Below, piece by piece: positions 7,188 through 38,662 of a stretch of DNA of 54,072 nt. Position numbers and translations under genes: made by a program. The stretch spans positions 1 through 54,072 of the IMG/VR virus record IMGVR_UViG_3300020417_000926. One strand, written 5' to 3'. The stretch's first letter is position 1. Every line of letters begins with the position of its first letter. This DNA is from a virus. The notes beneath the pieces were generated by a model. That model was not told the DNA's origin. It saw only the letters and a program-made list of their open reading frames with translations, and did not search any database.

Positions 7188-7666
7188 CTTACACCAGCCA
7201 TCTTCTTTAGGTTTTCTATATCTCTACGGTTAGCATCTGCCTTGGCACTATTTGCATTTGCTACCTGTGTGTTCTGTTGCGTGGTCATGGTGTTTTGTGC
7301 TTGTTGATTAGGAACGTTTAATCTAGCACCTTGACCTGTTGGTTGTATATTTCTCTGCGATTGTACTGCTGGATTTTTCTGTGTAGACGTTTGTCTTTTC
7401 ATCTTATTCTGTGGTGTTGTTGATGGAGTAGGTGCTGATGGATTCACACCATAGCCCTCTTCAATGCCAATTTTGTCAAGCAATATGTTTCTAATCACTC
7501 TTTGGTCATTGTTCTCAACAGCATCACTCAATTTAATAGCATCTGCAATGGAAAATTGTTTTGCAAGTTTGGCCGCTTCTTTGGCACTAATCTCGTGATT
7601 ATGCACTTTTTCAATATAATTTTTTAGTGCCATACTAAAACTATCGCCATAATCATCTAGTTTCAT
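7184..7666 (-). CDS. Helical protein with C-terminal LKKMAG motif
   Basis: 160 residues. The N-terminal 75 residues form a helical domain (KNYIEKVHNHEISAKEAAKLAKQF). It is followed by a Gln/Asn/Thr/Pro-rich disordered stretch and a C-terminal DIENLKKMAGVR. That tail matches the DIxxLKKLAGI motif in the proteins at 29853-30521 and 30521-31195. It lies directly after the basic, probably head-packaged protein in a late unit, with an ATGA overlap. A head-assembly or head-contents role is inferred; no enzymatic motif is seen. Confidence 0.65.
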   Translation of the reverse strand: MKLDDYGDSFSMALKNYIEKVHNHEISAKEAAKLAKQFSIADAIKLSDAVENNDQRVIRNILLDKIGIEEGYGVNPSAPTPSTTPQNKMKRQTSTQKNPAVQSQRNIQPTGQGARLNVPNQQAQNTMTTQQNTQVANANSAKADANRRDIENLKKMAGVR

Positions 7667-7959
7667 CTTCTCATCGCCTTGTTCATTCTTGCTACTGCTT
7701 TTGAGGCAGGATTAAACTTCTTAGTAAATCTTGCTTTTCGAGCCATTCTAGCGCCTTTTTGTGCTTTGGTACGCTTTAAAACAAAACGTTTTTTCAAATC
7801 AATAGGAGCAGAACATTGTGAAGGACTTGCTACCAGTCTGCCTTTCCTTTTACCAAACGTACAACGATACTTTTTAGTAATGGATTTGCCCTTACGAGCC
7901 CATACTAGTTTGCTCTCAATTATGTTGTTGTTTTCTTCTGTTAGCTCAAAAAGTTCCAT
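7663..7959 (-). CDS. Very basic small protein, candidate internal head protein
   Basis: 98 residues. The acidic start MELFELTE ends in an L-T-E tripeptide at residues 6-8. The rest is extremely Lys/Arg-rich (RKARFTKKFNPASKAVARMN), as expected for a DNA-bound head protein. T4 internal proteins have a similar layout: a short N-terminal targeting peptide cut after [L/I]-x-E, then a basic body. A late box sits exactly 5 nt before the ATG, so the mRNA should be leaderless. Two cysteines (KYRCTFGKRKGR and PSQCSAP) are also visible. The packaging role is inference and could be tested by particle proteomics. Confidence 0.65.
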   Translation of the reverse strand: MELFELTEENNNIIESKLVWARKGKSITKKYRCTFGKRKGRLVASPSQCSAPIDLKKRFVLKRTKAQKGARMARKARFTKKFNPASKAVARMNKAMRR

Positions 7960-7964
7960 AATAG

Positions 7965-7972
7965 TATTTAGT
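7965..7972 (-). promoter_or_regulatory. Late promoter abutting the start codon (ACTAAATA-N5-ATG)
   Basis: The minus strand reads ACTAAATA CTATT ATG. The CTATT that follows the box is the same as in the extended T4 late consensus. With a T4-like start site, +1 would be the A of the ATG at 7959. Confidence 0.7.
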
Positions 7973-7975
7973 CTA

Positions 7976-8245
7976 TTATGCTATGTTCATTAGAATCACA
8001 ACGATTGTGCTTAATAAACCTGCTATAACTGTGCCAGCACTACCTATGATTACCTTGGTATTTGTGGCGGCGTGACGTTCTATATTGATTGAATTTTGGT
8101 TGATACTCTTCATAAGGGAATTAAGATTCTCTTCCATGCGTTCTATTCTGCTCATCATATTGCCCAATTTCTCTTGCAATACTTCGTAACGAGCGGCACA
8201 TAAGTCCACATGAGCTTCTAAATTTTCTTTTTCTAGTTGAGACAT
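7976..8245 (-). CDS. Coiled-coil protein with C-terminal membrane helix
   Basis: 89 residues. Residues 3-60 are a long charged helix or coiled coil (YEVLQEKLGNMMSRIERMEENL). Residues 64-88 are a hydrophobic segment (KVIIGSAGTVIAGLLSTIVVILM) that should span a membrane, leaving almost nothing after it. This architecture is like haemolysin XhlA-type and some holin-associated proteins, so a role in lysis or at the membrane is possible. It is equally known as an unassigned conserved protein in marine T4-like phages. It has its own late box and a GGGA-type ribosome binding site. Confidence 0.65.
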   Translation of the reverse strand: MSQLEKENLEAHVDLCAARYEVLQEKLGNMMSRIERMEENLNSLMKSINQNSINIERHAATNTKVIIGSAGTVIAGLLSTIVVILMNIA

Positions 8246-8264
8246 TGCTTTTCCCTGCTGATAG

Positions 8265-8272
8265 TATTTATG
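8265..8272 (-). promoter_or_regulatory. T4-like late promoter box (CATAAATA)
   Basis: Minus-strand CATAAATA followed by CTATC, close to the extended T4 late consensus. It lies 19 nt upstream of the ATG at 8245 and overlaps the end of the gene at 8268-9191. Confidence 0.65.
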
Positions 8273-9191
8273 AATCTATCTGACTTTTCCAATCTTGAAA
8301 TGAGGCTTCTGCTCGATTAAACGCTACGTCGAAGCGTTCGCCTGCTAATAAATCTTTTCTAAAGTTAATCATGTATGCATATGGATCATCTATTAGATCC
8401 AGAGTGGGCCAACTTTTTCTGTTCACACACATTAGAAAATGTCTTATGTGTGGATCAACAATTTTGTCTACTTGTTCTTTGTATCTATATTCTTCAGGTT
8501 GACTTTTAGAAAATATAGCTTCAGGTCTTTTGTTTTTCAGCAGATATACTTTTATCCAGTCTGTGATTAATTCTCTCAACCCATTGTGATATAGTCCTAA
8601 CTCTTTCATAAGTTCCAGTACTTTTACCACATCAAATATATCTCTGTTTTTGATAACAATGTCTGCATTTTTTACAAACTGATCATGATTCAAACGCATC
8701 GATGTTTTGATTGATGTAAGACAGTATCTAAACCATGCATCTGAATTTTTAAAAGTTTCATTCCAATGCTCCGGAGATCCATTGAAACAGCGTCTATCAA
8801 TGTACATAGGAATGTCAAAGTCATTGCCTGGTTCTACTGCAACAATAATTGTTTCAACATCATTTCTAACTTCTTTATCCACTTTATGAAAAAACCATGC
8901 ACTAGGTCTTGCACTTGCTTTTTTAATTGCATACCATGTGTCTCGATCCAGTTCTGTGCGTGATTGCATGTACCAATGGTGTGCAAGTTTGTGTGATGTT
9001 GCCATTACTGCTTCATGACATTGCGAAGTCCAACAGTAATTGATGTATTGATCATCTGCTATTTTGGATACAATGTCTTTGGATCTTGCTTTGTCTTGTT
9101 GCCACTCGATTGCTCTGCTGAAGTTTAGCAGACGCATGAGAAAATTTCCACTTAATCCGGCATTTGCCAGCACAATTACATAATCACTCAT
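8268..9191 (-). CDS. Hypothetical protein, 307 aa
   Basis: Not recognised with certainty. The N-terminus MSDYVIVLANAGLSGNFLMR resembles the first strand and phosphate-binding turn of sulfotransferase-like P-loop proteins, but the canonical PKSGTT-type loop is absent. The rest is a soluble mixed alpha/beta protein with many Trp and His. It overlaps the 9188 gene by 4 nt and belongs to the unit running down from 11794. Sulfotransferase-like is only a suggestion. Confidence 0.6.
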   Translation of the reverse strand: MSDYVIVLANAGLSGNFLMRLLNFSRAIEWQQDKARSKDIVSKIADDQYINYCWTSQCHEAVMATSHKLAHHWYMQSRTELDRDTWYAIKKASARPSAWFFHKVDKEVRNDVETIIVAVEPGNDFDIPMYIDRRCFNGSPEHWNETFKNSDAWFRYCLTSIKTSMRLNHDQFVKNADIVIKNRDIFDVVKVLELMKELGLYHNGLRELITDWIKVYLLKNKRPEAIFSKSQPEEYRYKEQVDKIVDPHIRHFLMCVNRKSWPTLDLIDDPYAYMINFRKDLLAGERFDVAFNRAEASFQDWKSQIDS

Positions 9192-9592
9192 AAGGATTCT
9201 ACAATGGTATTACAGTTATGACTGTCTGTGGTTTCAATTATTTCTAAGTTATCGTCGTGTATAGGTATACCTGAAATATCTTGTTGTATTTGCATGATAG
9301 GAACCTCCGTATAAAAGTTTAATGTCCATACCGGCATTTTGCCAGTGAACTTGTCTCCAAATAACTTATCTACTTTTTTGACAGAGCTTGTTACAGTAGG
9401 TTCAAATACTTGTGATCTAAAACTACATGCTTGAACAAATGTATTATAATTTTGGCTTTGATAGAAACCTTTTGTATTCTTCTTTTGTGTTGCAGTATCG
9501 TGGGTGATATCTATTAGTGTTTTTATTTGGTGATTGAATTTTACATCCACAAGGTTCTCATCATTGATGACTGCCTTTTGCTTCTGTGGCAA
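9188..9592 (-). CDS. Hypothetical protein, about 134 aa, probable TTG start
   Basis: Not recognised. The open frame extends upstream to an ATG at 9634, inside the preceding gene. A TTG at 9592 sits 7 nt after an AAGGA sequence and directly after the stop of the preceding gene, which fits the tight spacing of this unit; I prefer it. The sequence has a central polar region and a C-terminal VWTLNFYTEVPIMQI strand-rich part. No motif is seen. Confidence 0.55.
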   Translation of the reverse strand: MPQKQKAVINDENLVDVKFNHQIKTLIDITHDTATQKKNTKGFYQSQNYNTFVQACSFRSQVFEPTVTSSVKKVDKLFGDKFTGKMPVWTLNFYTEVPIMQIQQDISGIPIHDDNLEIIETTDSHNCNTIVESL

Positions 9593-9593
9593 A

Positions 9594-10250
9594 TTACATT
9601 CCTTTTCTCCCAATGGCGTAGGCCGCGGCACCAATGGCGCCTAAAGTAATTGCGTTTTTCTTTACTTTATCCCACACACTTGGTTTTTGAATTTGTGCTT
9701 GTGATAATGTTCCGTCAACTGAACCCATTAACTGTACAGATGAATATAATTGACCGTATCTGCCATTGGTATGATACCATTTGTTTACCATTGGCATTAA
9801 CACTTTTTTGTTTGAATTGGATAAAGATGCGTAGTCTTGTACTCGTCTACGTATGCTTTTTAGTCTAGAATCTCTGATTCCTAAACTACTTTCTAATCTT
9901 TGTAGTTGTCCTCTTGCTTGACCAGATGCAAGTCTGCCAGATGCAATACCACCCAAATATTGTTTCAATTCGGGTTCATTGATTTTTGCACCTGCCTGTT
10001 TGCTTTGATATATTGCATTGTATAAATCTGTACTGCTCACTCTAGCACGATCAAATGTTCTACTTTTGATTGTTTCGGCCGCATATGCTTGTGCTTGAGC
10101 TCGATAGGCTGGTTCATTGTACATCATGTACAGAGTGTTTAAATCCATAAAAGCAAAATCTTTGATCTGCTGACTGTCCATCGAGTCAGTTCTGCTTTTG
10201 GTTCTAAACTGTCCTGCTTCTGTAATATCTTTTAAAAATTCGTAAGCCAT
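9594..10250 (-). CDS. Head-associated candidate with N-terminal ITE-A processing site
   Basis: 218 residues. It begins MAYEFLKDITEAGQ, with I-T-E followed by Ala at residues 9-12, which is the T4 prohead-protease consensus ([L/I]-x-E, then a small residue). The body is Arg/Gln/Ser-rich and helical. The C-terminus has a short hydrophobic stretch (AITLGAIGAAAYAIG) that could insert in a membrane, as ejected proteins sometimes do. AAGGGA ribosome binding site; it directly follows the DUF6356 gene. Packaging is inferred from the peptide only. Confidence 0.6.
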   Translation of the reverse strand: MAYEFLKDITEAGQFRTKSRTDSMDSQQIKDFAFMDLNTLYMMYNEPAYRAQAQAYAAETIKSRTFDRARVSSTDLYNAIYQSKQAGAKINEPELKQYLGGIASGRLASGQARGQLQRLESSLGIRDSRLKSIRRRVQDYASLSNSNKKVLMPMVNKWYHTNGRYGQLYSSVQLMGSVDGTLSQAQIQKPSVWDKVKKNAITLGAIGAAAYAIGRKGM

Positions 10251-10466
10251 TTATTTTCCCTTACTCATAGCTAATTCTTGTTCAGCTAGAATTTTACGCA
10301 TTTCGTCACTTGCGTATGTGGTATACCAGCGTGGAACGAAAGCATGAATAACAACTCTAGTGGCCGCACGTTCTAATCTCCATGCAACTTTGATGGCATG
10401 CCAGAAATGTTGCCATCTTGTCATGTTTACTTCATCTAAATGTACTTTGCATTTTTGTGACAACAT
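10251..10466 (-). CDS. DUF6356-like small protein
   Basis: 71 residues with the pattern of the DUF6356 family: a helix with MTRWQHFWHAIKVAWRL, then RVVIHAFVPRWYTTYASDEM. The IHAF-x-P and SD/SE near the C-terminus are the recognisable parts. The family is found in phages and some bacteria and has no known function; the amphipathic helices suggest membrane association. Its start overlaps the stop of the ligase-like gene (TAATG). Confidence 0.65.
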   Translation of the reverse strand: MLSQKCKVHLDEVNMTRWQHFWHAIKVAWRLERAATRVVIHAFVPRWYTTYASDEMRKILAEQELAMSKGK

Positions 10467-11794
10467 TATTGAAAATCCTTAGGAGCAAAATTTGCCTTGC
10501 TAAAATCTAATCTGTCTACAATCTTTACAGCATTACCCATATGGTCTGCTACCACAACACCTTCGCCTGGTGTAACTTTGTAACTGCCATCTGGTTGTTG
10601 TATAAAAGCCTTCATCTGCATTAATTTGTTAAGATGTTTTGTGAGTTCATCTTTGGCTTCCATTATGCCCATGTACAGGTTATAAAGATTGTACAATTTT
10701 TCTTTATTTTCTGCAACAAAGTCTTTTGCTCTTTGTAGATCATCCATTTTACGCATGGCGGCTGGACCTTCAGGACCAGTCTTTAGTGTGCTGATTTCTT
10801 TGTCTGTGGTGGCAACAATCTGTTCAATGAAACTGTTAAAGAATCTACTTGCATCTGTGAACTTACCTGCTCGTACTGCCCTGTTAACATGAGTTAACAG
10901 TTGTTGGCCAAACTTTTTAATTGGTGAATCTGTTAGCAATGCCCAATCTTCATTGCTCATGCTTTTTATTGTTCTACTACTGGCACCTAACATTTGTAGA
11001 ATTGGTTTTGCTTCAGCCTTGCTAAGTCCTGCTCCTGATACATCTGTTACCACTGCATCATCAAACCATACATCTGGATGTTCGTTCATACCTTCTATGC
11101 TGGCACCAAACTGTGCAGTCATGTCTCCAACTGTTTCACCATCATATGCTGTGTGCCACACAATACCAATCTTTGCATTTCTAATTCGATCTGCAAGTTC
11201 AGAGTCGGCCGGTACTGCATATGTGATGGTGTTTGGTTTGAATGTTAGATATTCTTCACCTTCAATTTTTTGTGCTTTGAGCGTGTCGGGTGTAAACATT
11301 AGATCGCCTTGCAACACACCTTCAATTCCTAATTTAGGAAAATGTTCTAGAGCTGTTTTTAATTTGTTACGCAAACTGCTGGCATCTTTATCTTCTTTGT
11401 CTGGATGAAAGCGTTCAATGTCTGATGGTTTTTTGTTTAGTTTTGGATCACGTTTACTGAACACACCTTTTGTGCCTACAAAAAATTGTCCATCTTGAGG
11501 ATCTGTGCCTGCAATAATTGCCGGAGCACCATCCCACTTAACACTAACCACTGCTGGTCCACCACCACTTGCACCACCACTCATTGCATTTGCAAGTCCG
11601 CTGATAAGTCGTATAGCAGTTTCGGCTCCCTGCTTCTGCTGTGAAAACACAAGTTCTTCGGCGTGCATCAGATGTGTATTTTTACCACCTGTTGCTTCTC
11701 TTAGATTGTGCAGAGCTTTTTGCACCAAGCGATCAGCTCGTGGTCCACGCTTTTTTCTCTTTTTCCAGCCGGATAAAATCTCTTTAACTCGCAT
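10466..11794 (-). CDS. Nucleotidyltransferase/ligase-like protein (DUF6267 type)
   Basis: 442 residues. Residues 41-50 contain HLMHAEELVF. At 83-94 comes VSVKWDGAPAII, with K86-x-D-G matching motif I (the adenylated lysine) of DNA/RNA ligases and capping enzymes. It is followed by VGTKGVF, IEGVLQGDLMF, YLTFKP and a late EGVVVADHMGNAVKIVDRL that resembles motifs IV and V. The same order occurs in a conserved marine T4-like phage protein (I believe DUF6267). A ligase or nucleotidyltransferase activity is plausible but unproven. The first 25 residues are strongly basic. Residues 31-34 (L-R-E-A) also fit the prohead protease site. It overlaps the upstream gene by 11 nt. Confidence 0.65.
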   Translation of the reverse strand: MRVKEILSGWKKRKKRGPRADRLVQKALHNLREATGGKNTHLMHAEELVFSQQKQGAETAIRLISGLANAMSGGASGGGPAVVSVKWDGAPAIIAGTDPQDGQFFVGTKGVFSKRDPKLNKKPSDIERFHPDKEDKDASSLRNKLKTALEHFPKLGIEGVLQGDLMFTPDTLKAQKIEGEEYLTFKPNTITYAVPADSELADRIRNAKIGIVWHTAYDGETVGDMTAQFGASIEGMNEHPDVWFDDAVVTDVSGAGLSKAEAKPILQMLGASSRTIKSMSNEDWALLTDSPIKKFGQQLLTHVNRAVRAGKFTDASRFFNSFIEQIVATTDKEISTLKTGPEGPAAMRKMDDLQRAKDFVAENKEKLYNLYNLYMGIMEAKDELTKHLNKLMQMKAFIQQPDGSYKVTPGEGVVVADHMGNAVKIVDRLDFSKANFAPKDFQ

Positions 11795-12035
11795 TTTTCT
11801 TAAGTTTCCTTACACCACGTTCAAATATACCCATGTCTTTGTTTTTAAGACTGAGCATGAATCTTTTACGGAGATCTGCCTGTGTTGATTCTTCAAAATT
11901 CGTTTCTATGTATTCTAAAAGTTGAATTGCACTACCTAGTACATTTTCACTTCTATAACTTAGTATCTGCTCTTTGCTACTTTTAGGAGCAATACTGTTT
12001 ATTTCTTCTAGAATACTGCGAGTTTTCTTTTTCAT
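11784..12035 (-). CDS. Conserved small helical protein, 83 aa
   Basis: Residues read MKKKTRSILEEINSI, then SYRSENVLGSAIQLLEYIE and a basic C-terminus. I recall similar short proteins beside the ligase-like gene in marine T4-like phages. The frame is open upstream to a TTG at 12047, but GGAG lies 6 nt before the ATG at 12035, so I use that start. A late box is just upstream. Function unknown; co-expression with the ligase-like gene suggests a shared role. Confidence 0.7.
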   Translation of the reverse strand: MKKKTRSILEEINSIAPKSSKEQILSYRSENVLGSAIQLLEYIETNFEESTQADLRKRFMLSLKNKDMGIFERGVRKLKKNAS

Positions 12036-12055
12036 ATCAGTCTCCAATATAGTAG

Positions 12056-12063
12056 TATTTAGC
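12056..12063 (-). promoter_or_regulatory. T4-like late promoter box (GCTAAATA)
   Basis: Minus-strand GCTAAATA followed by CTACT, 20 nt upstream of the ATG at 12035, with a GGAG site between. It overlaps the stop codon of the helicase gene, separating early replication genes from the late unit that runs to 8268. Confidence 0.65.
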
Positions 12064-13442
12064 TACTCTGCCTTTTTGAGTATACTTCGGAGCCTATCAC
12101 TGCTGTTAACAGCATTATCCTGTGTTTCTGGCTGTGGAGAATTAGTTCCTAGTGTGCTTTTCTTCTTTAACTGATCATATATGTTGTTAAAACTGGTATC
12201 TTCTGCTTCTTGCTCATCTAAATCTGTGATACGCATACTGTCAATGTTAAAATCCAAATCAATTTTTTGTCCAACACCATTACTGCTTCTTGTTTTCATA
12301 AACTGTATCTGTATTCTACCACGTTCACGCATGGCTTTACTGCTGAATATACCAATCACATTGTCTGCTGTTTGTATTTTACTCAAGCCACCTGCAATAT
12401 GCGAATGATCAAACTCAATTTCTTCTACTGCTGATCTGTTTAACTGCGAAGCAGTTGCAAACAAATAGTTTCCTTCAACTGCAAAGTTTCTAAGTTCTTC
12501 TGATACAAACTTATCTTTAATAAACAGATCACTGGGTGGTACTTTCTTTTGTGCTGGCATCATCAAATCCAAATAGTCTACCAATATTGCTTGAATTTTT
12601 TTGCCGTTTTGAACTTCAAACTCTTTTATAAAACTACGCAAGTCATTTACTGTGATACCGTTGGGTAATTGCACAATCTGTAAACCTGCATTGTGTTTTG
12701 CGGCCATTTTTACTTTTAGTTCTACATTGTCTGTGTCTTTTAAAACCTGTCTTGTTGTTAATCCTGTCAGCATTGCATCAAGTCGCATACTGCATAATTC
12801 TTCACTGAGTTCTAAACTCACATATAGTGTGTTATAGCCCATGGCTGTCCAATTGAGTGCTAAGTTCTGTAAGAAAATACTTTTACCTGCACCTGATCCG
12901 CCTGCAAAAATGTTTAGTTCGCCATTGTTGAATCCACCATACAGTTTTTCATCAATGCTTTTCCAACCTGTGCTGGTTCCACCTTTGGCATCTTTGATTG
13001 CTTGTAGTCTGCTTTTTGGATCTGCCCAATAGTCTGTGCCTAAGTTTTTGTTTAAACTTATTGCTACTGCTTCTTTTACCAAATGCTCTACTGCACCATA
13101 CTCTGACTTGTCCAACATGTCTGTGCTGGCCAATATTGCACCTTCTAATCCTTTGTGTCTACAAAATGTTTCAAAATCATCTAAAAACCAATCCTTGTGT
13201 GCTGAACCAGTTTCTCCAATGTTTTGCAATTCCATGTTGGTTATTGCTTTAACCTGTTCATGTGTGGGCATTGCTCCATATTCTGAAGCATGTTCCTGTA
13301 TAAACTCTACCGTACTACGCAACGGTCTATCAAAGTACTCAGGCTTTACAATGTTATTGACACGAACAAATAATTCGTGATCATTCATCATAAACTCCAA
13401 ATACAATTTTTGTAATTCTTGACTATATTCTTTTACTTCCAT
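12063..13442 (-). CDS. gp41: Replicative DNA helicase, T4 gp41 type
   Basis: DnaB-family 5'-3' helicase that unwinds DNA ahead of the phage replisome and works with the primase encoded just upstream. 459 residues (T4 gp41 is 475). The N-terminal helical domain covers residues 1-140. The Walker A GGSGAGKS is at about 181-188, Walker B is ILVDYLDLM, and a later QTADNVIGIF strand and MKTRSSNG arginine-finger region follow. The frame opens at a GTG at 13448, but the ATG at 13442 has a TAGGTG site before it. The primase stop codon (13445) is 2 nt upstream, so the primosome genes are coupled. Confidence 0.92.
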   Translation of the reverse strand: MEVKEYSQELQKLYLEFMMNDHELFVRVNNIVKPEYFDRPLRSTVEFIQEHASEYGAMPTHEQVKAITNMELQNIGETGSAHKDWFLDDFETFCRHKGLEGAILASTDMLDKSEYGAVEHLVKEAVAISLNKNLGTDYWADPKSRLQAIKDAKGGTSTGWKSIDEKLYGGFNNGELNIFAGGSGAGKSIFLQNLALNWTAMGYNTLYVSLELSEELCSMRLDAMLTGLTTRQVLKDTDNVELKVKMAAKHNAGLQIVQLPNGITVNDLRSFIKEFEVQNGKKIQAILVDYLDLMMPAQKKVPPSDLFIKDKFVSEELRNFAVEGNYLFATASQLNRSAVEEIEFDHSHIAGGLSKIQTADNVIGIFSSKAMRERGRIQIQFMKTRSSNGVGQKIDLDFNIDSMRITDLDEQEAEDTSFNNIYDQLKKKSTLGTNSPQPETQDNAVNSSDRLRSILKKAE

Positions 13443-13444
13443 GT

Positions 13445-14440: not shown

Positions 14441-14448
14441 ATATGTAT

Positions 14449-15286: not shown

Positions 15287-15291
15287 ACTAT

Positions 15292-15299: not shown

Positions 15300-15306
15300 G
15301 AACATC

Positions 15307-20163: not shown

Positions 20164-20164
20164 T

Positions 20165-28750: not shown

Positions 28751-29794
28751 TTAGCCTCTAGGATTGAATTGGAATAGAGCTTCCATTGGTTTGCCATACA
28801 ATAGATAGATAGTGTCACTTGCAAGAGTCATACCATCTAGATCTGCTGGTTGCCTTACTACACCTATTGTATTATAACCAAACATGATACCAGCTAATAT
28901 CTCCCATCGTCCACCCATATCGCTATTCTTGTACCAATTAAATTGACTTTTAATCCATGCTCTGTTTACTAGATTTGGATCTGCACCTGGTCTATTAAAT
29001 GCACTTTCAAAGTCTCCACCATTACCATTAAAGAACATCTGTGATAATCCATTGCCAAGTCTTTGTCTATCCGCAGGATTTACATTTGGAATGTTGTTTA
29101 CTAAATTAACAAATGTTCTGAGATTGATTGCACCATTTACTGACTTTGCTCGTTGTTCGTCTAATGGTCCTTTGAGCCATTCAAAACTGTGCATGTGATT
29201 TAATATTGTATCATAAGGAGGTACTTCTCCAGTTTCTCCAAATCGTCCACCACTTATACCTTTGCCACTGGCCGCGGCTTTGATTTCAACAGGAACACCA
29301 TTTACATCAACATCACCCTTGCCTTGAATAGTGATACTGCCACTGAGTATTGCTAAACCATGTTCACAAGGACCTTTCATCTTGTCTGAAACACCAAATG
29401 TTTTTAGATGATCAAACATTGCTTTGTTTATAGGATCATTGTTGCACAATGCATCTAGTGTGTGTATACCAGGTGTGAGTAACAGTTTGTGATTGATTAC
29501 ATTATCTTGTGCTAGGCTGTCTGCAAATTTCATTTTGTCTTGAAAACTAATTTGAGCTTCTGCAATCTTGCCAGCAATTTTCATTGTTTGTATTTCGTTG
29601 TATTCGCCCTGTAGTGTTTTAGGCAATACACTAGAAAATCTACCTGTAACGTTGCCAGAATTTAAAACTGTGTATACTTTATCCAGTAATTCTTGATTCT
29701 GTTCGTTAGGATCTAAAGCATTGATAGTTTTGATTATCTCTGCTTTGGCCTGTTCAAGGCTTTCGTATTCAAATAATAATTCACTTGCTCTCAT
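28751..29794 (-). CDS. PD-(D/E)XK nuclease-like protein with head-targeting N-terminus
   Basis: 347 residues. It starts MRASELLFEYES, with L-F-E at residues 7-9, like the T4 capsid-targeting peptide. The core shows CEHGLAILSG and then GKGDVDVNGVPVEIKAA (D161, E170-x-K172), a D-x8-E-x-K restriction-nuclease signature, followed by GGRFG. A structure-specific or restriction-like nuclease, perhaps packaged in the head, fits. Late box exactly 5 nt before the ATG. It lies directly upstream of gp17, so a role in packaging or DNA-end processing is the main alternative. Confidence 0.6.
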   Translation of the reverse strand: MRASELLFEYESLEQAKAEIIKTINALDPNEQNQELLDKVYTVLNSGNVTGRFSSVLPKTLQGEYNEIQTMKIAGKIAEAQISFQDKMKFADSLAQDNVINHKLLLTPGIHTLDALCNNDPINKAMFDHLKTFGVSDKMKGPCEHGLAILSGSITIQGKGDVDVNGVPVEIKAAASGKGISGGRFGETGEVPPYDTILNHMHSFEWLKGPLDEQRAKSVNGAINLRTFVNLVNNIPNVNPADRQRLGNGLSQMFFNGNGGDFESAFNRPGADPNLVNRAWIKSQFNWYKNSDMGGRWEILAGIMFGYNTIGVVRQPADLDGMTLASDTIYLLYGKPMEALFQFNPRG

Positions 29795-29799
29795 ACTAG

Positions 29800-29807
29800 T
29801 ATTTACC
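29800..29807 (-). promoter_or_regulatory. Late promoter abutting the start codon (GGTAAATA-N5-ATG)
   Basis: Minus-strand GGTAAATA CTAGT ATG for the gene at 29794. The same CTAGT spacer is used by the promoter at 27176-27183. Confidence 0.7.
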
Positions 29808-29852: not shown

Positions 29853-30521
29853 TTAAATTCCGGCTAATGATTTAAGCCGTTTTATATCGTCACTAACGGG
29901 TGTATTTTTTGCTTCGTCAAATCCTTCGGATCCACCTTCCATGCTAGCCATACCATCTTCTTGCATGCCTTGTTCTGTGAACACTACTGTGAATCCTACC
30001 ATTTTACTGATTGCTTTTTCAAAGCCACTGTCTGTATAGATCGTCCATGGACCATCATGTTCTACGCTTACTTTTCTGTAACCATCATCTTCGTCATCAT
30101 CCATGTAACCACCTGGTTCATATGGATTTTCGATTGTAACATTTGATACTTGTACTGATTCTGGATTTTCACCATCTCTGTCCCAGATACTATCACCAGC
30201 AAGTTTAATAGTTTTTGATGGTATAGATTGAATAATTTCATCTGCTTCTTCAACTTCGCCTTCTTGTGCTTCCATTGGTACAACTTTGCCTGCTCTATCC
30301 AAAACAGAATACAGACCACCAATCAGCTTTTTAAAAGTTGTAAGTTGATCTGTTAAATCACCTACACCAGTTGATGCATCATCTCTATCAAGAACATCTA
30401 ATTCGTCAACTTCGCTGTTTAGTTGTTCAAGTGCTAGAAAAATATCATTGAGTTTTTCATGCTTCTCTTGATCAGTTGCATCTTCGCCTAGGTATTGTCT
30501 GATTTTGTCTTGGATTTCCAT
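29853..30521 (-). CDS. Acidic protein with C-terminal LKSLAGI motif
   Basis: 222 residues, strongly acidic (about residues 125-145 carry YMDDDEDDGYRK). The N-terminal 75 residues are helical (LNDIFLALEQLNSEVDEL). A middle part reads SKTIKLAGDSIWDRDGENP, then beta strands. The last residues, DDIKRLKSLAGI, match the motif in the adjacent acidic protein and in the 160-aa protein at 7184. Its start overlaps the stop upstream (TAATG). A head-core or scaffold role is inferred from composition and late expression. Confidence 0.6.
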   Translation of the reverse strand: MEIQDKIRQYLGEDATDQEKHEKLNDIFLALEQLNSEVDELDVLDRDDASTGVGDLTDQLTTFKKLIGGLYSVLDRAGKVVPMEAQEGEVEEADEIIQSIPSKTIKLAGDSIWDRDGENPESVQVSNVTIENPYEPGGYMDDDEDDGYRKVSVEHDGPWTIYTDSGFEKAISKMVGFTVVFTEQGMQEDGMASMEGGSEGFDEAKNTPVSDDIKRLKSLAGI

Positions 30522-31195
30522 TAGATACCTGCCAATTTCTTCAATGCTGAAATATCTGCTGATACTGTTTGATCTGTAGTTGTTTCACCAATGCCTGCAA
30601 GTTTTTTAAGATCTGCAATGTCTTGATTTTCTTCAACTGACTCTTTGGCTTTTTTCTTTTTCTTTTTCTTGTCGTCATCGTCGTCGTCATCATCGTCATC
30701 ATCTGATTTTGGTGTACCATCGGAATGCATATACTTGTCATCAGTATAATCATACTCTCCTGGATAAGGTTTTCTGCCTTCTTCTACTGATTCATCAGCT
30801 TTTTCTTTATCTTTATCTTTGGCGGCTTTTTTCATTGACTCTTCTTTGTCACCATCGCCATCAATATCTATATAATCAGGTTTTGCTTTCTTTTCTTCAA
30901 TTGCCTGCTCAACAACTTCCTCTTGAGCTTGTTCCTCAACTGCTTCATCCTCGCTGAGATATTCCTTAAATTTTGCCATCATGTCTTCTACTTCATGATC
31001 TTCAAACACTTTATCTTCACCTTCTACAACCTTTACTGGCATAGGATCTGCATTCATGTACTGTCTAAGACTTTGGTTTACATCTGCTTCTGGGGCCTGT
31101 ACCTCTTCTGGTTCAGGGTGTTTTGTGTTTGCTGGACTGTTGGCCCACTCAGTTTGTGGCATTCCAGCTAGTTTTCTTAATTCATCTAAGTTCAT
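30521..31195 (-). CDS. Highly charged scaffold-like protein with three LKKLAG motifs
   Basis: 224 residues, mostly disordered and acidic. It starts MNLDELRKLAGMPQ, has QDIADLKKLAGIGE near residue 200 and ends ADISALKKLAGI. The middle holds a calcium-loop-like YIDIDGDGDKEESMKKAAKD, a sequence type frequent in marine T4-like phage core proteins. Further on come a run of 11 Asp followed by 7 Lys. Scaffolding proteins are often this charged. The motif copies could bind a shared partner such as the portal or shell. Late unit with an ATGA overlap to the 178-aa gene. Confidence 0.6.
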   Translation of the reverse strand: MNLDELRKLAGMPQTEWANSPANTKHPEPEEVQAPEADVNQSLRQYMNADPMPVKVVEGEDKVFEDHEVEDMMAKFKEYLSEDEAVEEQAQEEVVEQAIEEKKAKPDYIDIDGDGDKEESMKKAAKDKDKEKADESVEEGRKPYPGEYDYTDDKYMHSDGTPKSDDDDDDDDDDDKKKKKKKAKESVEENQDIADLKKLAGIGETTTDQTVSADISALKKLAGI

Positions 31196-31728
31196 GCCTT
31201 TTCTCCTTCGTAGCCAACACCTTCTGGCATTTGCTCTCTTCTAAGTTTCATCATTTCGTCTACGAATTTTGTTTTGAAATCTTCGCCATAGTATTCTGCA
31301 TGATCTACTTTTTCTACATCATCTGCACTATAGTCTTCTGATTCTAATTTAACTTTGTATTCTTCATCTTTTTTTGCTTTTTCTTCTGCAAGTTCTCTAG
31401 CCATTGCTGGTTCATTGTGTGCTCTTACTTTAATTTTGTTTTCGCCAATGTTCCATATTCTTACTAGTTCTGTCATCAAGCCAAATTGACTTGCTGGTTG
31501 GTCACTATCAAAATCAATAGTTGTTACATTAACACCTCTTTCACCTGGAAAATCAATTGGAGCACTTTGTAAAATTCCTCGCTTGGGTGAATTTACACTT
31601 TTTACTTCATACTTTTTAAGATGTTCTTCAAGTGCGTCCATCATTTCATCCGAAACTTCTTCAGAGGTTTTGATTCTGTAACTATAACTGGATTTTGATT
31701 CTGTCAAATATGCTTTTAAATAATTCAT
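31192..31728 (-). CDS. Conserved late protein with head-targeting-type N-terminus
   Basis: 178 residues. It begins MNYLKAYLTESKSS, with L-T-E at residues 8-10, the [L/I]-x-E prohead-protease site. The body (YSYRIKTSEEVSDEMMDALE, then VNVTTIDFDSDQPASQFGLM) resembles a conserved hypothetical of marine T4-like phages. The C-terminus is charged (KAKKDEEYKVKLESEDY). First gene of a late unit that includes the two acidic proteins; late box GATAAATA upstream and a GGAG site. Confidence 0.65.
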   Translation of the reverse strand: MNYLKAYLTESKSSYSYRIKTSEEVSDEMMDALEEHLKKYEVKSVNSPKRGILQSAPIDFPGERGVNVTTIDFDSDQPASQFGLMTELVRIWNIGENKIKVRAHNEPAMARELAEEKAKKDEEYKVKLESEDYSADDVEKVDHAEYYGEDFKTKFVDEMMKLRREQMPEGVGYEGEKA

Positions 31729-31746
31729 GTTATCGCTCCGTTAAAG

Positions 31747-33565: not shown

Positions 33566-33578
33566 AACATTACCTTAC

Positions 33579-34208
33579 TTAGCCAGTAGCTCTTTGTGTA
33601 CCTGGTGTACTTGAAGCACCACCTTGTCCTGGTGCTAGTGTATTAGTTGCGCCTGAATCCAGTGAATGTTCACAGTTATCATAACGTATTGTCATTGATA
33701 TTTGAACTTGTTCACTAGTTGCATATGCTACGTCACCAAATGTAACGTTTGTAAGCATTGCGCCTTCTAGTTTAAATGATTCAATAGGTACAACACTTCC
33801 GCCGGAGCCTCCGCTGTTTGTACCATCTAGCATGTCAATTACAGTTTTAAATTTGTAATTAGATGCGGCAGATGGTGTTGCTTGATTCTCATGATCTGTC
33901 TGTGCTGATAATTGTGCGTTAACCGCCTGGACAACATCGCCACCTATATCATCACGCACAACGAGTGTGATAGGATCCCATGTGTGTTTTCCAAGCATGT
34001 AAATTCTTGAATTGTAAACATCTAGTGTTGTTTCATCATATGTAATTCCTGGTCTGGTTACGCTGACCACATTTTCTGTAATAGCTACAGTATTTCCTGG
34101 ATTATCTCCGAATCCATTCAATAGTACACGAAAACGAAATTGTAATTTCGGCATCGCGGCTGGTCCGCTTCCTCCATCTACAGGAACTGTAAATTTGTTA
34201 AGTGCCAT
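33579..34208 (-). CDS. gp19: Tail tube protein gp19
   Basis: Stacked hexamers form the inner tail tube. 209 residues (T4 gp19 is 163). Tube-fold blocks: KLQFRFRVLLNGFGD, VVSVTRPGITYDETTLDVYN, HTWDPITLVVRDD and SFKLEGAMLTNVTFGDVAY. Extra Gly/Ser/Thr-rich tail at the C-terminus. It has its own late box (CATAAATA) with a 49-nt leader and a GGGAG site, after the sheath terminator. This fits the need for many copies. Confidence 0.9.
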   Translation of the reverse strand: MALNKFTVPVDGGSGPAAMPKLQFRFRVLLNGFGDNPGNTVAITENVVSVTRPGITYDETTLDVYNSRIYMLGKHTWDPITLVVRDDIGGDVVQAVNAQLSAQTDHENQATPSAASNYKFKTVIDMLDGTNSGGSGGSVVPIESFKLEGAMLTNVTFGDVAYATSEQVQISMTIRYDNCEHSLDSGATNTLAPGQGGASSTPGTQRATG

Positions 34209-34257
34209 TGCATAACTCCCAATAGTTAAATTCTCTTCTTCTTAATGAAGCTAAATG

Positions 34258-34265
34258 TATTTATG
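34258..34265 (-). promoter_or_regulatory. T4-like late promoter box (CATAAATA)
   Basis: Minus-strand CATAAATACATT, 49 nt upstream of the gp19 ATG. It lies between the sheath terminator and gp19, so the tube gene is transcribed independently. Confidence 0.7.
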
Positions 34266-34298
34266 AAAAAGTCCAAGAAAATTTTTCGGGGTCAAACG

Positions 34299-34320
34299 AA
34301 TAGGCCCAAAAGGGCCTATT
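34299..34320 (-). terminator. Terminator after the sheath gene
   Basis: Perfect 9-bp stem AATAGGCCC / GGGCCTATT with a 4-nt loop, 14 nt after the gp18 stop. The run of T that follows on the minus strand is weak (CGTTTGACC), so termination may be partial. Confidence 0.7.
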
Positions 34321-34333
34321 CTAGTTGTTTTAA

Positions 34334-36814
34334 TTAGGCAAGTTGCCCTGTATTAACAATTCTGATTGGAATATAGATGAATTCTATACTCTTTGCAGGA
34401 GCAATAGCAACATCAATGTATAATTCATTTCTGTCTATTCTCGCTGGTGTGTTGTTGGATGTGTCACAAACCACTGCAAAGTCACTCAAGCCTCTTTTTG
34501 CTTGAATGTCTGATAGGAAGTTTGTAAACAGTAATCCTGCTCGATCTCTTGTTGTTTCATCATTAGGTTCAAACAAGAAAGGTCTTGCCAACACGTCAAA
34601 TCTTTCACGCAAATATGCTACCAATCGTGCAACATTAACACGATCCAATGCACTTGTTGTTCCGTGCAATGATTTTTGTCCAAAGATTGTTATTCCAGAA
34701 TCTGGAAAGTTTGCAATCGGATTTACTTTGGCAGAATATAATGCATCTCTTTGACTGTTTGTCAATGCAGTTGCCTTGAATTCGTTTTCGCCATCTACAT
34801 GACCTACTCCAGATGCGTTAGAAATAACACCTCTGTTAAGTCCTGCTGGTGCAAACCATTGAAATGATACAGCATCACTTACTGCAATTTGGTAAAGCAC
34901 AGAGTGTGATGGGTATGTTACGACAGTTGAACCTGCTGTTGGTTCAGTTGCCTTCAGTGGCGGATAGTAAACTGCTGAATATGTGTTTTTGGTTACTAGA
35001 CCATCTTCACCATTTTCAGTGGTTGCTGTTCCACCAACCCATGTTACCATTTCAGTTGGTGACTTACGTAATGGTGAGTCAATGATTACAAAAGCAGTAT
35101 TGCCTCTGTTGTTGTTCATTGTTACCATTTCGTCTGCTAGTTCTGGATATCCTGGAGCGGCAATTAGTGAATAACTAAAATTTTCATCTAGGTTATCAGT
35201 GTCAGAGGCTGTGGCTTGTAGAGCAGTTGCAATAATTTTACGTTGTGCAAATCTACCAAACGCACCTGAACCGTCTGCATGATTAGAAGCACCATTTCTC
35301 CATTTACCTGCTGTTGAATTATATGCTCTCACAGTATTTTTACTTTGAGCCATGTTAATTACAACCATTCCAGTTGGATAAATCGCGGCATCTGGAGCAC
35401 CAGTAATTTCTGTTGCGTTACCGCCATCTGTTGCATCTGCGGCCGTGTCTGTAATATCAGCAAATAGAACACCATTTGATGTACTTTGATCTGCATTACT
35501 ATGAAGTACCCATGCACTATTACCAGCATTTCTCTGATAAATTTTTGGATAGTCACGCTCATTTGCTAAGCCATAACCAGCACTTGTTGTGTCAATCCAA
35601 ATATCTCCTGCACTTGGTCCTGTTGGAGCCGTTGTGCTATAAGTTGGAGCAATAGTTGTATAGTTACTACCATTTACTTTGTAGACATCTAGTCCAGTAA
35701 GTGTGTTATCAAACCAGTATTGACCATCTGATGCAGTACCAGTTGGTTCTGCGTTTTGAGCCTTTTTGGTTGTTAAAGTATCAAGTACTTCAACTCCGCC
35801 TGCGGCCGATACTCTTTGAATGATGATTAATGCTTTAGTGTTAGCATCTACGTCTAACAAATAGTTGCCTGGTACGGCACTTGAAGATGTCAATGCAGTT
35901 GTGCTTGAACCATCTTGTGGAATAAAGTTACCAATTACTGTTTCCTCGCCAGCACCTGCGTTTGTAACACCTTGCACAGTTTGTAATACCCAACTACCTG
36001 TACCTGAATGTTCGTAAATTTTTAAATCTATACCATTGCCTGGTGAAGTAGTTTTGATCCAAACATCTCCTGCACCTGGTGATGCTGGAGCAGTATAGTG
36101 TGGTGCCCATGAAACAGTTTCACCTGATGAAAGATTACCATCAAAGTCAAGTTCTTCCCATGCATTTGAAATTCCATAGAAATATTCAAGTGATGCATTA
36201 CCGTCTTGGTCTAGGTGTACTACAACAAGGAAGTTACCATTGGTTACTGAAGTTGTAATTGAATATCCACTGGCTCCTAATGTATGTGCATCAGTGGCGG
36301 CATTGTTAACTTCAATGGTTGGAGTCTGTTTTTCCCAAACACTAGAAGTTGCATTCCATTTATTGATACCATATTCACTGGCGTCTGTGTCTAACCACCA
36401 ACTGTTTGCTGTTGCATATGAGGCAGTTGGTTCTGTTGTTGTAGGGATAAGCTGAGTAGTGTTTACGTTTGCTCTTGAAATATACGCACTACCACCTTGT
36501 CCCAAAAAGCTATAAGCGGCCAACAATCCATATTCGCTGGTTTCGTCTCCAACAATAGGTGTTGATCCACTTTTTCTGAAGAAAATATCTCCAAAGTTTT
36601 GTGTTAATTCTCTTTGAGATGTTACCAGTAGTGGTGTGTTTGCTTTTGCACTCTTAGTCATTGGTGCGATTGAGTCTGATGCACTACCTGTAGGATCGGT
36701 TTTATCCTGTCCTGTGGCTACCATGATAAATGGTATTGTGCCTCCGCCTGGGGCGGCGTAGGCTGACTCGTCTGAAACACTAACTGAAACACCTGGTGAT
36801 GTTAATGTAGCCAT
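34334..36814 (-). CDS. gp18: Tail sheath protein gp18 with inserted repeat domain
   Basis: Forms the contractile sheath. 826 residues (T4 gp18 is 659). The conserved ends are clear: MATLTSPGVSVSVSDES at the start, and near the end RVNVARLVAYLRERFD, ARPFLFEPND, RIDRNELYIDVAIAPAKSIE. Residues about 127-437 hold a beta-rich insertion with four degenerate copies of a unit P-x-GD-x-W-x-x-TT...IY...G..WV (near 130-160, 241-279, 355-388 and 394-437). The insertion probably projects from the sheath surface. Late box and GAAGGGG site upstream. Confidence 0.93.
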   Translation of the reverse strand: MATLTSPGVSVSVSDESAYAAPGGGTIPFIMVATGQDKTDPTGSASDSIAPMTKSAKANTPLLVTSQRELTQNFGDIFFRKSGSTPIVGDETSEYGLLAAYSFLGQGGSAYISRANVNTTQLIPTTTEPTASYATANSWWLDTDASEYGINKWNATSSVWEKQTPTIEVNNAATDAHTLGASGYSITTSVTNGNFLVVVHLDQDGNASLEYFYGISNAWEELDFDGNLSSGETVSWAPHYTAPASPGAGDVWIKTTSPGNGIDLKIYEHSGTGSWVLQTVQGVTNAGAGEETVIGNFIPQDGSSTTALTSSSAVPGNYLLDVDANTKALIIIQRVSAAGGVEVLDTLTTKKAQNAEPTGTASDGQYWFDNTLTGLDVYKVNGSNYTTIAPTYSTTAPTGPSAGDIWIDTTSAGYGLANERDYPKIYQRNAGNSAWVLHSNADQSTSNGVLFADITDTAADATDGGNATEITGAPDAAIYPTGMVVINMAQSKNTVRAYNSTAGKWRNGASNHADGSGAFGRFAQRKIIATALQATASDTDNLDENFSYSLIAAPGYPELADEMVTMNNNRGNTAFVIIDSPLRKSPTEMVTWVGGTATTENGEDGLVTKNTYSAVYYPPLKATEPTAGSTVVTYPSHSVLYQIAVSDAVSFQWFAPAGLNRGVISNASGVGHVDGENEFKATALTNSQRDALYSAKVNPIANFPDSGITIFGQKSLHGTTSALDRVNVARLVAYLRERFDVLARPFLFEPNDETTRDRAGLLFTNFLSDIQAKRGLSDFAVVCDTSNNTPARIDRNELYIDVAIAPAKSIEFIYIPIRIVNTGQLA

Positions 36815-36845
36815 TTAATTTCCCCTTCTCTTAAAGTGATATATG

Positions 36846-36853
36846 TATTTACC
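36846..36853 (-). promoter_or_regulatory. T4-like late promoter box (GGTAAATA)
   Basis: Minus-strand GGTAAATACATA, 31 nt upstream of the gp18 ATG with a GAAGGGG ribosome binding site between. Confidence 0.65.
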
Positions 36854-36904
36854 GTACCCTGCTTAAAACCACGGTTTATAGCCATTAAATACGTATATAA
36901 TGGC

Positions 36905-36933
36905 TTGACTTCGAGTACAATTTAGTATATAAT
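36905..36933 (+). promoter_or_regulatory. Sigma70 early promoter (plus strand)
   Basis: Plus-strand TTGACT (36905-36910), a 17-nt spacer, TATAAT (36928-36933), then about 20 nt of leader with GAGAGGA before the ATG at 36960. A palindromic GCCATTA...TAATGGC element overlaps just upstream and could be an operator. Confidence 0.85.
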
Positions 36934-36959
36934 GAAATAACATAATTGAGAGGATAACC

Positions 36960-37232
36960 ATGGCTATTGACTACAAGTTCAATGAAGAAAATTTAATAAA
37001 AGAATTACAAGCATATGTTGATTCAACATATGATCAACACTATAGCAAAAACAAATTTCAGGCCACTGAATTTATCATAGATGCCGGACACGGCGAAGGT
37101 TTTTGCATAGGCAATATTATGAAGTATGCTCAACGATACGGAAAAAAAGATGGGTATAATAGGAAAGACTTACAAAAAGTTTTACACTATGCACTAATTG
37201 CCTTGAGTGTACACGACTCTAACCAATCGTAA
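36960..37232 (+). CDS. DUF3310 (SaV-like) early protein
   Basis: 90 residues. The block FIIDAGHGEGFCIGNIMKYAQRYGKKDGYNRKDLQKVLHY fits DUF3310, whose hallmark is a GN-x2-KY-x-x-R-x-GKK helix. It is split here only for length: FCIGNIMKYAQRYGKK is the core. The family is widespread in phages near nucleotide-metabolism genes; its activity is unproven. An early plus-strand gene placed between late minus-strand tail genes; its 3' end overlaps gp13 by 14 nt, convergently. Confidence 0.8.
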   Translation: MAIDYKFNEENLIKELQAYVDSTYDQHYSKNKFQATEFIIDAGHGEGFCIGNIMKYAQRYGKKDGYNRKDLQKVLHYALIALSVHDSNQS

Positions 37233-37959
37233 CATAACCAATACTGCTTTCACCAGCGGCGAACAATCTAAGATCTTGTTCTAGTTTTTCAATACTGGCT
37301 TGTGCATCAGCTCTTAATGTTTCTGAATTAAGACTTGTTCCGCCTTGTGGTCCTGCAATGGTATTGAACTTGCCACGTGCTTCTGCTAACATAAGTTTTG
37401 CATGTGCCAACGAATATTCTTTTAACCAAGGACCTGCATAGATATCTGTTAATAAACTTTCATCATCAACATATTTGTATACCCAAAGCACCACAGATGT
37501 ATTTGCTTTTGGTTTTCTGTGTACAGTAAGTTTACTATTTCTAACATTCCATGTAAACAGATATTCACTGCCAAACAATTTACCTAGTGTTTCTCTGTGT
37601 TGTTGCAGAGCATCAAACGTTGCTAGTCCGCCTGCTCTACCACCTGCAAGTAGATATGTGTTTAAATATGCCGCCTCAAATGGTTCAAAGTCGTTGCCTG
37701 AACTGGCATTAGTGCCACTTGTTCTTGTGAGAATATCACGCACTTCAACTATTTCAGTGGGTAATGTGTATTCTTGAATATCTTCTTTGAGTTCTAAAAA
37801 TACGTATGCTTCTTCAACTGAGTTTTCACTGCGTTGTCTGTATTTTTCAAAACTCTTTTTAATAGCCAAGTCATAATGTTCAGGATCGAGTTCAACATCG
37901 ACCATCTGTCCACCAAGTCGTAGCTCTATTTCTTTTGTTAAATCTTCTTTAAGTGCCAT
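37219..37959 (-). CDS. gp13: Neck protein gp13
   Basis: Closes the head and forms the platform for tail joining, with gp14. 246 residues (T4 gp13 is 309). Recognisable blocks: YDLAIKKSFEKYRQRSENSVEE, YTLPTEIVEVRDILTR, AGPWLKEYSLAHAKLMLAEARG and IAGPQGGTSLN near the C-terminus, as in cyanophage-type gp13. A late box lies exactly 5 nt from the ATG. gp14 is on the opposite strand 3 kb away, unlike T4 where 13 and 14 are adjacent. Confidence 0.82.
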   Translation of the reverse strand: MALKEDLTKEIELRLGGQMVDVELDPEHYDLAIKKSFEKYRQRSENSVEEAYVFLELKEDIQEYTLPTEIVEVRDILTRTSGTNASSGNDFEPFEAAYLNTYLLAGGRAGGLATFDALQQHRETLGKLFGSEYLFTWNVRNSKLTVHRKPKANTSVVLWVYKYVDDESLLTDIYAGPWLKEYSLAHAKLMLAEARGKFNTIAGPQGGTSLNSETLRADAQASIEKLEQDLRLFAAGESSIGYVTIG

Positions 37960-37963
37960 ACTA

Positions 37964-38662
37964 CTATTTACCTTGTTTGAAGTAGTCTGCCGTATACTTT
38001 AGCAGTTGTTTGATTTGCTTTGCATTTGCTGGAAATGAATTACGCATTCTATCATAACTCGGCAGTTCTTTTCTGTATGCTTCTGGGTTACGAAGCACAG
38101 CCTCAGGATTGTCTAAGTCCTTCATTTCATCTGCTAGATCACTGGCGTATGCCATAAGTTCATGTGGATCACGCAGGTAACTACGCATTAGATCTGCTTG
38201 TGTGCCACCTTTTTTAACTTGATCCAAGCCTTTCATGTAACCACTTTTGTATTTGGGCAATACTTTTTGATCCATTTTGTCGTATTGATTCCAATGTATG
38301 GTTTCGTGTTGCAACATTCTCATCAATATTTTTTTGAAAGTTTTAGGACCATACACTTTATCTAAATTCTTAGCATGTAGATACACAGTCATAAACTTGC
38401 CTTCTTTTTCAGTCCAATCTGCGGCCGCACTTATCCATTCATCTGGATCTTTGCGTTCAGAATAGTCTGTAATAAATTCTATTGGAAAGTCTTCAGTTTC
38501 AAAATTGAGCAGTTCTTCTAGCTCATTGATATCATCTTTATCATTGTTGGCTTGTAGGAATTCTTGGTAATCTGCCAAAGCATCATCTATAGCAGGCTCA
38601 AGGTCTGCTATAAATTCCCAGTCTGGTTCAACTCGTGCTTCAGTTAGTTCCCAAAATCTCAT
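37964..38662 (-). CDS. Zinc-metallopeptidase-like protein with head-targeting N-terminus
   Basis: 232 residues. Starts MRFWELTEARVEPD, with L-T-E followed by Ala at residues 6-9, an ideal T4-type prohead-protease site. H119-E-T-I-H123 (MLQHETIHWNQYD) is the HExxH zinc-protease motif; the downstream DPHELMAYASDL (E168) could supply the third ligand, as in gluzincins. The rest is helical and acidic near the start. A late box is exactly 5 nt from the ATG. A protease packaged with the DNA and ejected into the host is possible; a structural-maturation enzyme is the alternative. Confidence 0.65.
   Translation of the reverse strand: MRFWELTEARVEPDWEFIADLEPAIDDALADYQEFLQANNDKDDINELEELLNFETEDFPIEFITDYSERKDPDEWISAAADWTEKEGKFMTVYLHAKNLDKVYGPKTFKKILMRMLQHETIHWNQYDKMDQKVLPKYKSGYMKGLDQVKKGGTQADLMRSYLRDPHELMAYASDLADEMKDLDNPEAVLRNPEAYRKELPSYDRMRNSFPANAKQIKQLLKYTADYFKQGK
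37965..37972 (-). promoter_or_regulatory. Late promoter abutting the start codon (GGTAAATA-N5-ATG)
   Basis: Minus-strand GGTAAATA GTAGT ATG for gp13. It overlaps the last codons and stop region of the metallopeptidase-like gene. Confidence 0.7.

Follow-up and report, generated by a model that had tools for sequence, protein, structure and literature searches.

We analysed a stretch of 54,072 nucleotides (hereafter the window) covering positions 1 to 54,072 of IMG/VR virus record IMGVR_UViG_3300020417_000926, a 54-kb fragment of a large T4-related myovirus. An earlier note on this DNA had singled out five genes, here called A to E, whose products begin with an [L/I]-x-E motif like that of the T4 capsid-targeting sequence (CTS), and had read them as proteins packaged in the head. 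All five were present as minus-strand open reading frames (ORFs) with ATG starts and the N-termini that had been quoted, namely MELFELTE (A, L6-T-E8), MAYEFLKDITE (B, I9-T-E11), MRASELLFE (C, L7-F-E9), MNYLKAYLTE (D, L8-T-E10) and MRFWELTE (E, L6-T-E8). The note's descriptions of the bodies held as well, with a very basic A, a hydrophobic C-terminal segment in B, D161-x8-E170-x-K172 in C and H119-E-T-I-H123 in E. The genes, predicted cut sites and motifs are as follows.

7663 to 7959, minus strand: protein A, a very basic protein of 98 residues, with a pro-leader followed by the basic body SKLVWARKGKSITKKYRC, delimited from anchored relatives
7915 to 7959, minus strand: pro-leader of A, residues 1-15, with a conserved predicted cut after IIE-15 and an extra site at LTE-8, from the junctions of relatives
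9594 to 10250, minus strand: protein B, a head-cluster protein of 218 residues, from a hidden Markov model (HMM) family of 30
10218 to 10250, minus strand: pro-leader of B, residues 1-11, predicted cut after ITE-11, with the same junction in relatives
9609 to 9653, minus strand: Gly/Ala-rich hydrophobic C-terminal segment of B, residues 200-214, with GIGAxAGYW-type tails
28751 to 29794, minus strand: protein C, an accessory protein of 347 residues with a PD-(D/E)xK-like motif, in 14 loci
29768 to 29794, minus strand: pro-leader of C, residues 1-9, predicted cut after LFE-9, from relatives and fused ORFs
29279 to 29314, minus strand: motif D161-x8-E170-x-K172 of C, invariant in 9 sequences and modelled as a beta-hairpin (predicted local distance difference test, pLDDT, 81)
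31192 to 31728, minus strand: protein D, a virion structural protein of 178 residues (phrog_14802, profile match E = 1.6e-11)
31699 to 31728, minus strand: leader of D, residues 1-10, in the T4 CTS register, conserved in 41 of 41 sequences
37964 to 38662, minus strand: protein E, an accessory protein of 232 residues with HExxH, in 12 loci
38639 to 38662, minus strand: leader of E, residues 1-8, predicted cut after LTE-8, with E8 invariant
38294 to 38308, minus strand: HExxH of E, residues 119-123, invariant in 6 sequences that are 70-95% identical to the window

The window terminase was closest to those of PA5oct-like Pseudomonas phages (56% identity), followed by Sinorhizobium phage Phosso, Atu_ph07 and Rak2-like phages, and the gene order around it matched that of PA5oct. 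The window lacks the gp20-gp23 block and therefore holds neither a protease nor a capsid gene. A sibling contig (G006), with a D protein 99% identical to that of the window, encodes a Peptidase_S77 prohead protease (PF03420, E = 1.4e-23) next to the Gp23 major capsid protein, and a gp21-type protease was also found in contig G002 and in PA5oct. When the major capsid proteins of G001, G002, G006, G008 and PA5oct were aligned with T4 gp23, LSE, LTE or LVE stood at the position of the T4 LTE cleavage, with LTE in the sibling. These alignments indicate that the protease of this lineage, PA5oct included, very likely uses LxE.

A homologue of protein D was found in 51 of 83 first-round loci. Among 41 distinct sequences, an alignment from which the PA5oct and Phosso copies were excluded, Y7, L8 and E10 were identical throughout and position 4 was L, F or Y in every case; variation was seen at positions 3, 5, 6 and 9. 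Mutagenesis of the T4 IPIII leader has shown that targeting depends mainly on residues 4 and 7 and processing on residues 8 and 10 (PMC9026906), so the four constrained positions of D are those shown to be important in the T4 leader. This register, with targeting residues 4 and 7 and [LI]8/E10, fits D; the leaders of A, B, C and E are spaced otherwise. In T4, Asp at position 10 abolishes cleavage while targeting is retained. The site is also kept in gp210 of phage CBB (MNKLQKILTE) and in Vibrio phage 2.275.O (MKDLNTILTE|S). CBB_210 has been detected in CBB particles with 13 peptides (PMC5259590), and the PA5oct homologue, gp282, is annotated as seen by electrospray ionization tandem mass spectrometry (ESI-MS/MS).

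For protein A, an HMM gathered 20 sequences, and in all 18 of those that are anchored and have a leader, [I/L/V]-x-E immediately precedes [AST][KR]x[VI][WFY]. The common site is thus IIE-15; LTE-8, the site given in the earlier note, is an additional one shared by only a few relatives. A search of a phage collection for A homologues returned Salicola phage SCTP-2 only, whose gp12 consists of the A body without a leader, with Met at the cut point and in-frame stops just upstream. This leaderless protein indicates that the A leader is a separable module ending at LxE. Protein A itself is probably a basic internal protein associated with DNA.

The homologues of B were obtained through helicase-anchored loci and whole contigs, as single-protein scans with B and with the nearby DUF6267 protein described below returned near-identical contigs only. 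Wherever the junction can be identified in a relative, it reads [LIF]xE|[AS], in the forms ITE|A, ISE|A, LNE|S, LTE|S, LSE|S, LAE|S, LGE|A and FTE|S, behind leaders of 11 to about 49 residues; relatives with no such junction are truncated, mis-started or very distant. Most relatives also share the Gly/Ala-rich hydrophobic C-terminus of the GIGAxAGYW type.

Proteins C and E are sporadic among the loci, and a search of the phage collection for homologues of either found none. In the nine aligned relatives of C, E9-Y10 was invariant and residues 2-8 varied. The C body has E144, D161, E170 and K172 invariant in nine sequences, as is typical of PD-(D/E)xK nucleases, and its predicted model places strands at 161-164 and 167-174. 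Since no Pfam, PDB-sequence or Foldseek match was found for C, it is called nuclease-like only. The relatives of E (69-95% identity) read ELTE|A, EITE|A, EFTE|A or ELLE|A with E8 invariant, and one partial relative reads VLSE|K; because these relatives are close, E is the weakest case for conservation. H119-E120 and H123 were invariant in six fairly close sequences, no Pfam or PDB sequence match was found for E, and its model (pLDDT 52) was too poor for use.

In five loci (L110-L114) the C domain forms the C-terminus of a larger ORF, about 900-1,700 residues long, with the junction still reading LNE|Y or LFE|Y. In one such fusion the module AWSKKYKKSI... follows LDE, and the same module follows MKANEFLAE at the start of a separate protein (G004:49750). 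Sites kept inside polyproteins cannot be explained as an artefact of gene starts. Across the polyproteins, [LI]xE[ASG] sites showed no excess over the shuffled expectation and are notable only for their placement at domain junctions. ORFs of this length made of joined small modules were seen in L110, L111, L112 (G008:97624-100488), L113, L114 and L194:7017-10328, with LxE at the junctions and one module weakly resembling DUF5872. It is possible that they encode cargo polyproteins for the prohead protease.

We then asked how widely such leaders occur, using the pattern M[RKEN]-phi-x-[DEQNHRK]-[LIFY]-(phi)-x-E. It was fixed on a first set of loci and applied to loci gathered later with another gene, from which previously seen contigs and N-termini had been removed. 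It matched 15 of 1044 protein starts in these unseen contigs against 2 of 4533 internal methionines (33-fold, p = 1e-9), and shuffling residues 2-12 gave 1.7 matches against the 15 observed, which are not all independent events because several are A homologues. Apart from C, E and A, the proteins headed by such leaders in the two sets include, according to Pfam, an Fe/Mn superoxide dismutase (SOD), thioredoxin and a zeta-toxin kinase. This reuse on unrelated proteins points to a general packaging tag. The Fe/Mn SOD homologues with a leader lie at L113:5048-5581 (MRLENLTE) and L194:10328-10894 (MRLEQLDE). In gp223, the PA5oct homologue of the dismutase, residues 11-13 are I-A-E, and ESI-MS/MS notes stand on the PA5oct homologues of both the SOD-like and the KTSC-like cargo, gp223 included. 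Two further leader-headed proteins, L056:9469-10128 and L039:3893-4444, contain LYHG motifs, and the latter weakly matches an ADP-ribosyltransferase (E = 0.0056). Since T4 packages an ADP-ribosyltransferase, Alt, in its head, these two proteins could be Alt analogues.

Taken together, we consider it likely that A to E are precursor head proteins of a T4-related jumbo phage, each targeted by its leader, cut by a gp21-type protease and left as a mature body in the head. The short N-terminal pro-leader, 8-15 residues in A to E, would carry the protein into the prohead core by binding to the core as it forms; the shell would then close, and the gp21-type (Peptidase_S77) protease would cut after the Glu of [L/I/V]-x-E once assembly is complete. 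The mature bodies would stay inside the head with the DNA. B would be a conserved head-cluster protein with a hydrophobic tail, and C, with its PD-(D/E)xK-like motif, and E, with HExxH, would be optional cargo. This reading is supported by comparison, since the site is conserved, the leader is separable and recurs on unrelated bodies, the sibling has the protease and some homologues are present in virions. Head targeting and actual cleavage are inferences that these comparisons support well; ejection into the host is a conjecture that goes beyond them. The T4-like interpretation of the earlier note holds to this extent: a site ending in Glu is conserved near the N-terminus in relatives of all five proteins, a gp21-type protease is encoded by the sibling, D homologues occur in other virions and the leader pattern recurs on non-homologous proteins. 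Its description of the five as a kit delivered to the host needs narrowing, as A, B and D look like widespread, conserved components of head-gene clusters, which leaves C and E alone as apparent optional cargo with a possible role in the host.

Several observations weigh against this reading. The bare motif, with E at residues 8-11, occurred in 8 of 65 called window genes against about 3 expected from the interior motif rate in relatives (about 1.2% per position), an excess of about 2.5-fold with a Poisson estimate of p ~0.02. As a predictor of virion proteins in PA5oct, bare [LI]xE was rejected, being present in 6 of 89 ESI-MS/MS-marked proteins and 22 of 343 others (p = 0.53). With the bare motif near chance and uninformative in PA5oct, the initial argument from it was weak and not decisive. 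In T4, 20 of 257 called proteins carry it, of which about six or seven (about one third) are head proteins. Conservation of LxE by position was modest family-wide, with 6 families conserving it at the N-terminus against 0-3 in other positional windows; many of the six are head proteins. A profile derived from D, tried for finding other leaders, misses A, B, C and E, and places T4 IPI itself only at the 5% level. The D protein is retained with its Glu absent in PA5oct gp282 (MKSFRDYYDAS) and Phosso gp408 (MKNFYEYLSS), which indicates that processing is not always required; given LxE in the PA5oct capsid protein, the change in PA5oct is a genuine loss. Y at P1' in C is unusual compared with A, S or T in A and B. 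The leader pattern also fits T4 UvsY (MRLEDLQE), which to our knowledge is not a head protein. Finally, metabolic enzymes, among them ribonucleotide reductase and thymidylate synthase, also appear on the PA5oct ESI-MS/MS list, so detection there is supportive and does not prove a location in the head.

The best-surviving alternative is that A to E are core or structural parts of the prohead, targeted and cut as above and then retained or degraded, so that the leader marks membership of the core and not ejection. We regard this as quite possible, if somewhat less than probable. In its favour, the genes for A, B and D sit within conserved clusters of head genes, proteins at the gp67, gp21, gp22 and gp23 positions of relatives have similar N-termini, the capsid protein itself carries LxE at the T4 cleavage position, and T4 core proteins are processed likewise (PMC5694885). 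Against it, C and E are sporadic, and the leader stands on SOD, thioredoxin and a zeta-toxin kinase, which have no obvious structural role. A role of the N-terminal LxE in an amphipathic helix that makes assembly contacts and is never cut is unlikely. The D proteins of PA5oct and Phosso, which keep the helix when the Glu is gone, would suit such a role, as would the conservation of residues around LxE in the family of the gene at 11784. However, P1 Glu and a hydrophobic P3 persist in A, B, C and the DUF6267 protein although their leaders vary freely in sequence and length, one A relative has no leader at all, and LxE is retained at internal polyprotein junctions. That a common tripeptide was merely picked by eye among about 65 protein starts, as the small excess in the window and the PA5oct result might suggest, is highly improbable, given that diverged relatives of A, B, C and D conserve the site (the case being weakest for E, with its close relatives) and that the leader pattern was enriched in an independent test.

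The precursor-head-protein reading can be compared with known systems. Capsid-targeting sequences are established in T4, and a review suggests that T4-like phages package various proteins with them (PMC9026906). A to E resemble the T4 internal proteins IPI, IPII and IPIII and Alt in their short N-terminal leader, their [LI]xE cut site and the presence of one basic protein, as with the internal proteins. D further matches the T4 CTS at positions 4, 7, 8 and 10, the sibling has an S77 protease, and relatives have LxE at the gp23 position. By contrast, the bodies of A to E have no detected relation to the internal proteins or Alt, and the leaders outside D are mostly MR-phi-x-[DE]-[LI]-x-E rather than the T4 MKTYQEFIAE. 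P3 can also be V or F. Some leaders contain two sites or are longer, at 30-50 residues, and relatives carry SOD, thioredoxin and zeta-kinase cargo as well as fused polyproteins. The head and ejection proteins of phiKZ and SPN3US are also from jumbo phages and are cut after Glu, with several sites per propeptide (PMC9026906, PMC5694885); they belong to another phage group and their propeptides often exceed 100 residues, whereas the leaders here are T4-like, with 8-15 residues or 33 in the DUF6267 protein. PA5oct (Wroclawvirus), CBB and other Rak2-like jumbo phages share the terminase lineage and gene order of the window. The PA5oct and CBB virion lists both hold D homologues, and that of PA5oct also holds homologues of the window genes at 5161 and 5497; the PA5oct D homologue is the one that lost its Glu. 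In the open-access literature we found work on capsid-targeting sequences for T4 and SPN3US, and no report of leaders or cleavage for the PA5oct/Rak2-like group. Judged by that literature, what is new in this jumbo group is the leader class itself, the placing of leaders on enzymes, polyprotein cargo that keeps its sites, and a possible LxxLAGI tag (below).

Nearly all of the genes considered here are unannotated. With a leader that is recognisable from sequence, such hypothetical genes could be predicted to encode head cargo, and the exact cut site could be predicted as well. Phages of this T4-related group, which are large and mostly environmental, probably bring a changeable protein cargo, including enzymes, into the bacterium with their DNA. 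Should the enzymes be injected, nuclease-, protease- or antioxidant-type activities would be at hand, ready-made, before any gene expression. A broader proposal, which we offer tentatively and with some doubt, is that head packaging in this group is open-ended: a cleavable leader, often joined by the LxxLAGI tag, would turn almost any gene into cargo co-injected with the DNA, from nuclease-like and protease-like proteins to SOD, thioredoxin and zeta-toxin-like kinase, some of it made as polyprotein for the prohead protease to separate.

The set of five was incomplete. The following genes on the minus strand would extend it.

10466 to 11794, minus strand: DUF6267 protein (PF19782, E = 2.5e-93), a long basic leader followed by the conserved domain
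11696 to 11794, minus strand: pro-leader of the DUF6267 protein, residues 1-33, predicted cut after NLRE-33, from relatives
11784 to 12035, minus strand: candidate protein of 83 residues, MKKKTRSILEEINS, with L-x-E at E11, in a family of 46
5161 to 5487, minus strand: candidate protein of 108 residues, MYIAQIVKE, with relatives starting MRLADLIRE and MKIKDILVE

The DUF6267 protein, which the earlier note had missed, is a sixth candidate of the same class as A to E: its 33-residue basic leader ends NLRE|ATGGKNTHL, and hydrophobic-x-E immediately before the KNTHL block is kept in relatives. Starts in the 5161 family also include MRFSDLVE and, in Salicola phage SCTP-2, MRINDLFE; the PA5oct homologue, gp246, is marked ESI-MS/MS, and PA5oct gp247 is a further protein of a cultured relative with such a leader. 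The gene at 11784-12035 belongs to a widespread family of 80-94 residues, RS[IL]LxE[IL]NS, directly after the replicative helicase gene; this position next to gene 41 parallels that of T4 gene 40, the head vertex chaperone. Most members keep L-x-E with x variable (RSILEEINS in the window family), and neighbouring residues are conserved too. The PA5oct homologue is named a virion structural protein but has no MS mark, which, for a family that has LxE, is a further point against the packaging interpretation.

Late-promoter-like elements stand before three of the five genes.

7964 to 7970, minus strand: TAAATAC, 4 nt before the ATG of A
29799 to 29805, minus strand: TAAATAC, 4 nt before the ATG of C
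38667 to 38673, minus strand: TAAATAC, 4 nt before the ATG of E

These are the three genes with the shared promoter design described by the earlier note. The design was rejected as a mark of the leader set, since similar elements also precede the genes at 37219, 25836 and 14450. With TAAATA ending 4-5 nt before the ATG, transcripts of the genes at 7663, 28751, 37964, 37219, 25836 and 14450 would be leaderless.

A second motif, [LI]x(1-2)[LM]AG[IVLM], was enriched at protein ends in the relatives, 7-fold in the first 25 residues and 13-fold in the last 15. In the window it occurs at the C-termini of the products of 7184-7666 (ENLKKMAGVR) and 29853-30521 (KRLKSLAGI), and at both ends of that of 30521-31195 (N-terminal MNLDELRKLAGM, C-terminal ALKKLAGI). 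The C-terminal form co-occurs with an N-terminal LxE (14 of 40 against 410 of 3284, p = 2.4e-4), and this LxxLAGI-type motif is a candidate for a second core-docking tag. In five phages, the scaffold-position protein adjoining the protease and capsid genes ends with it.

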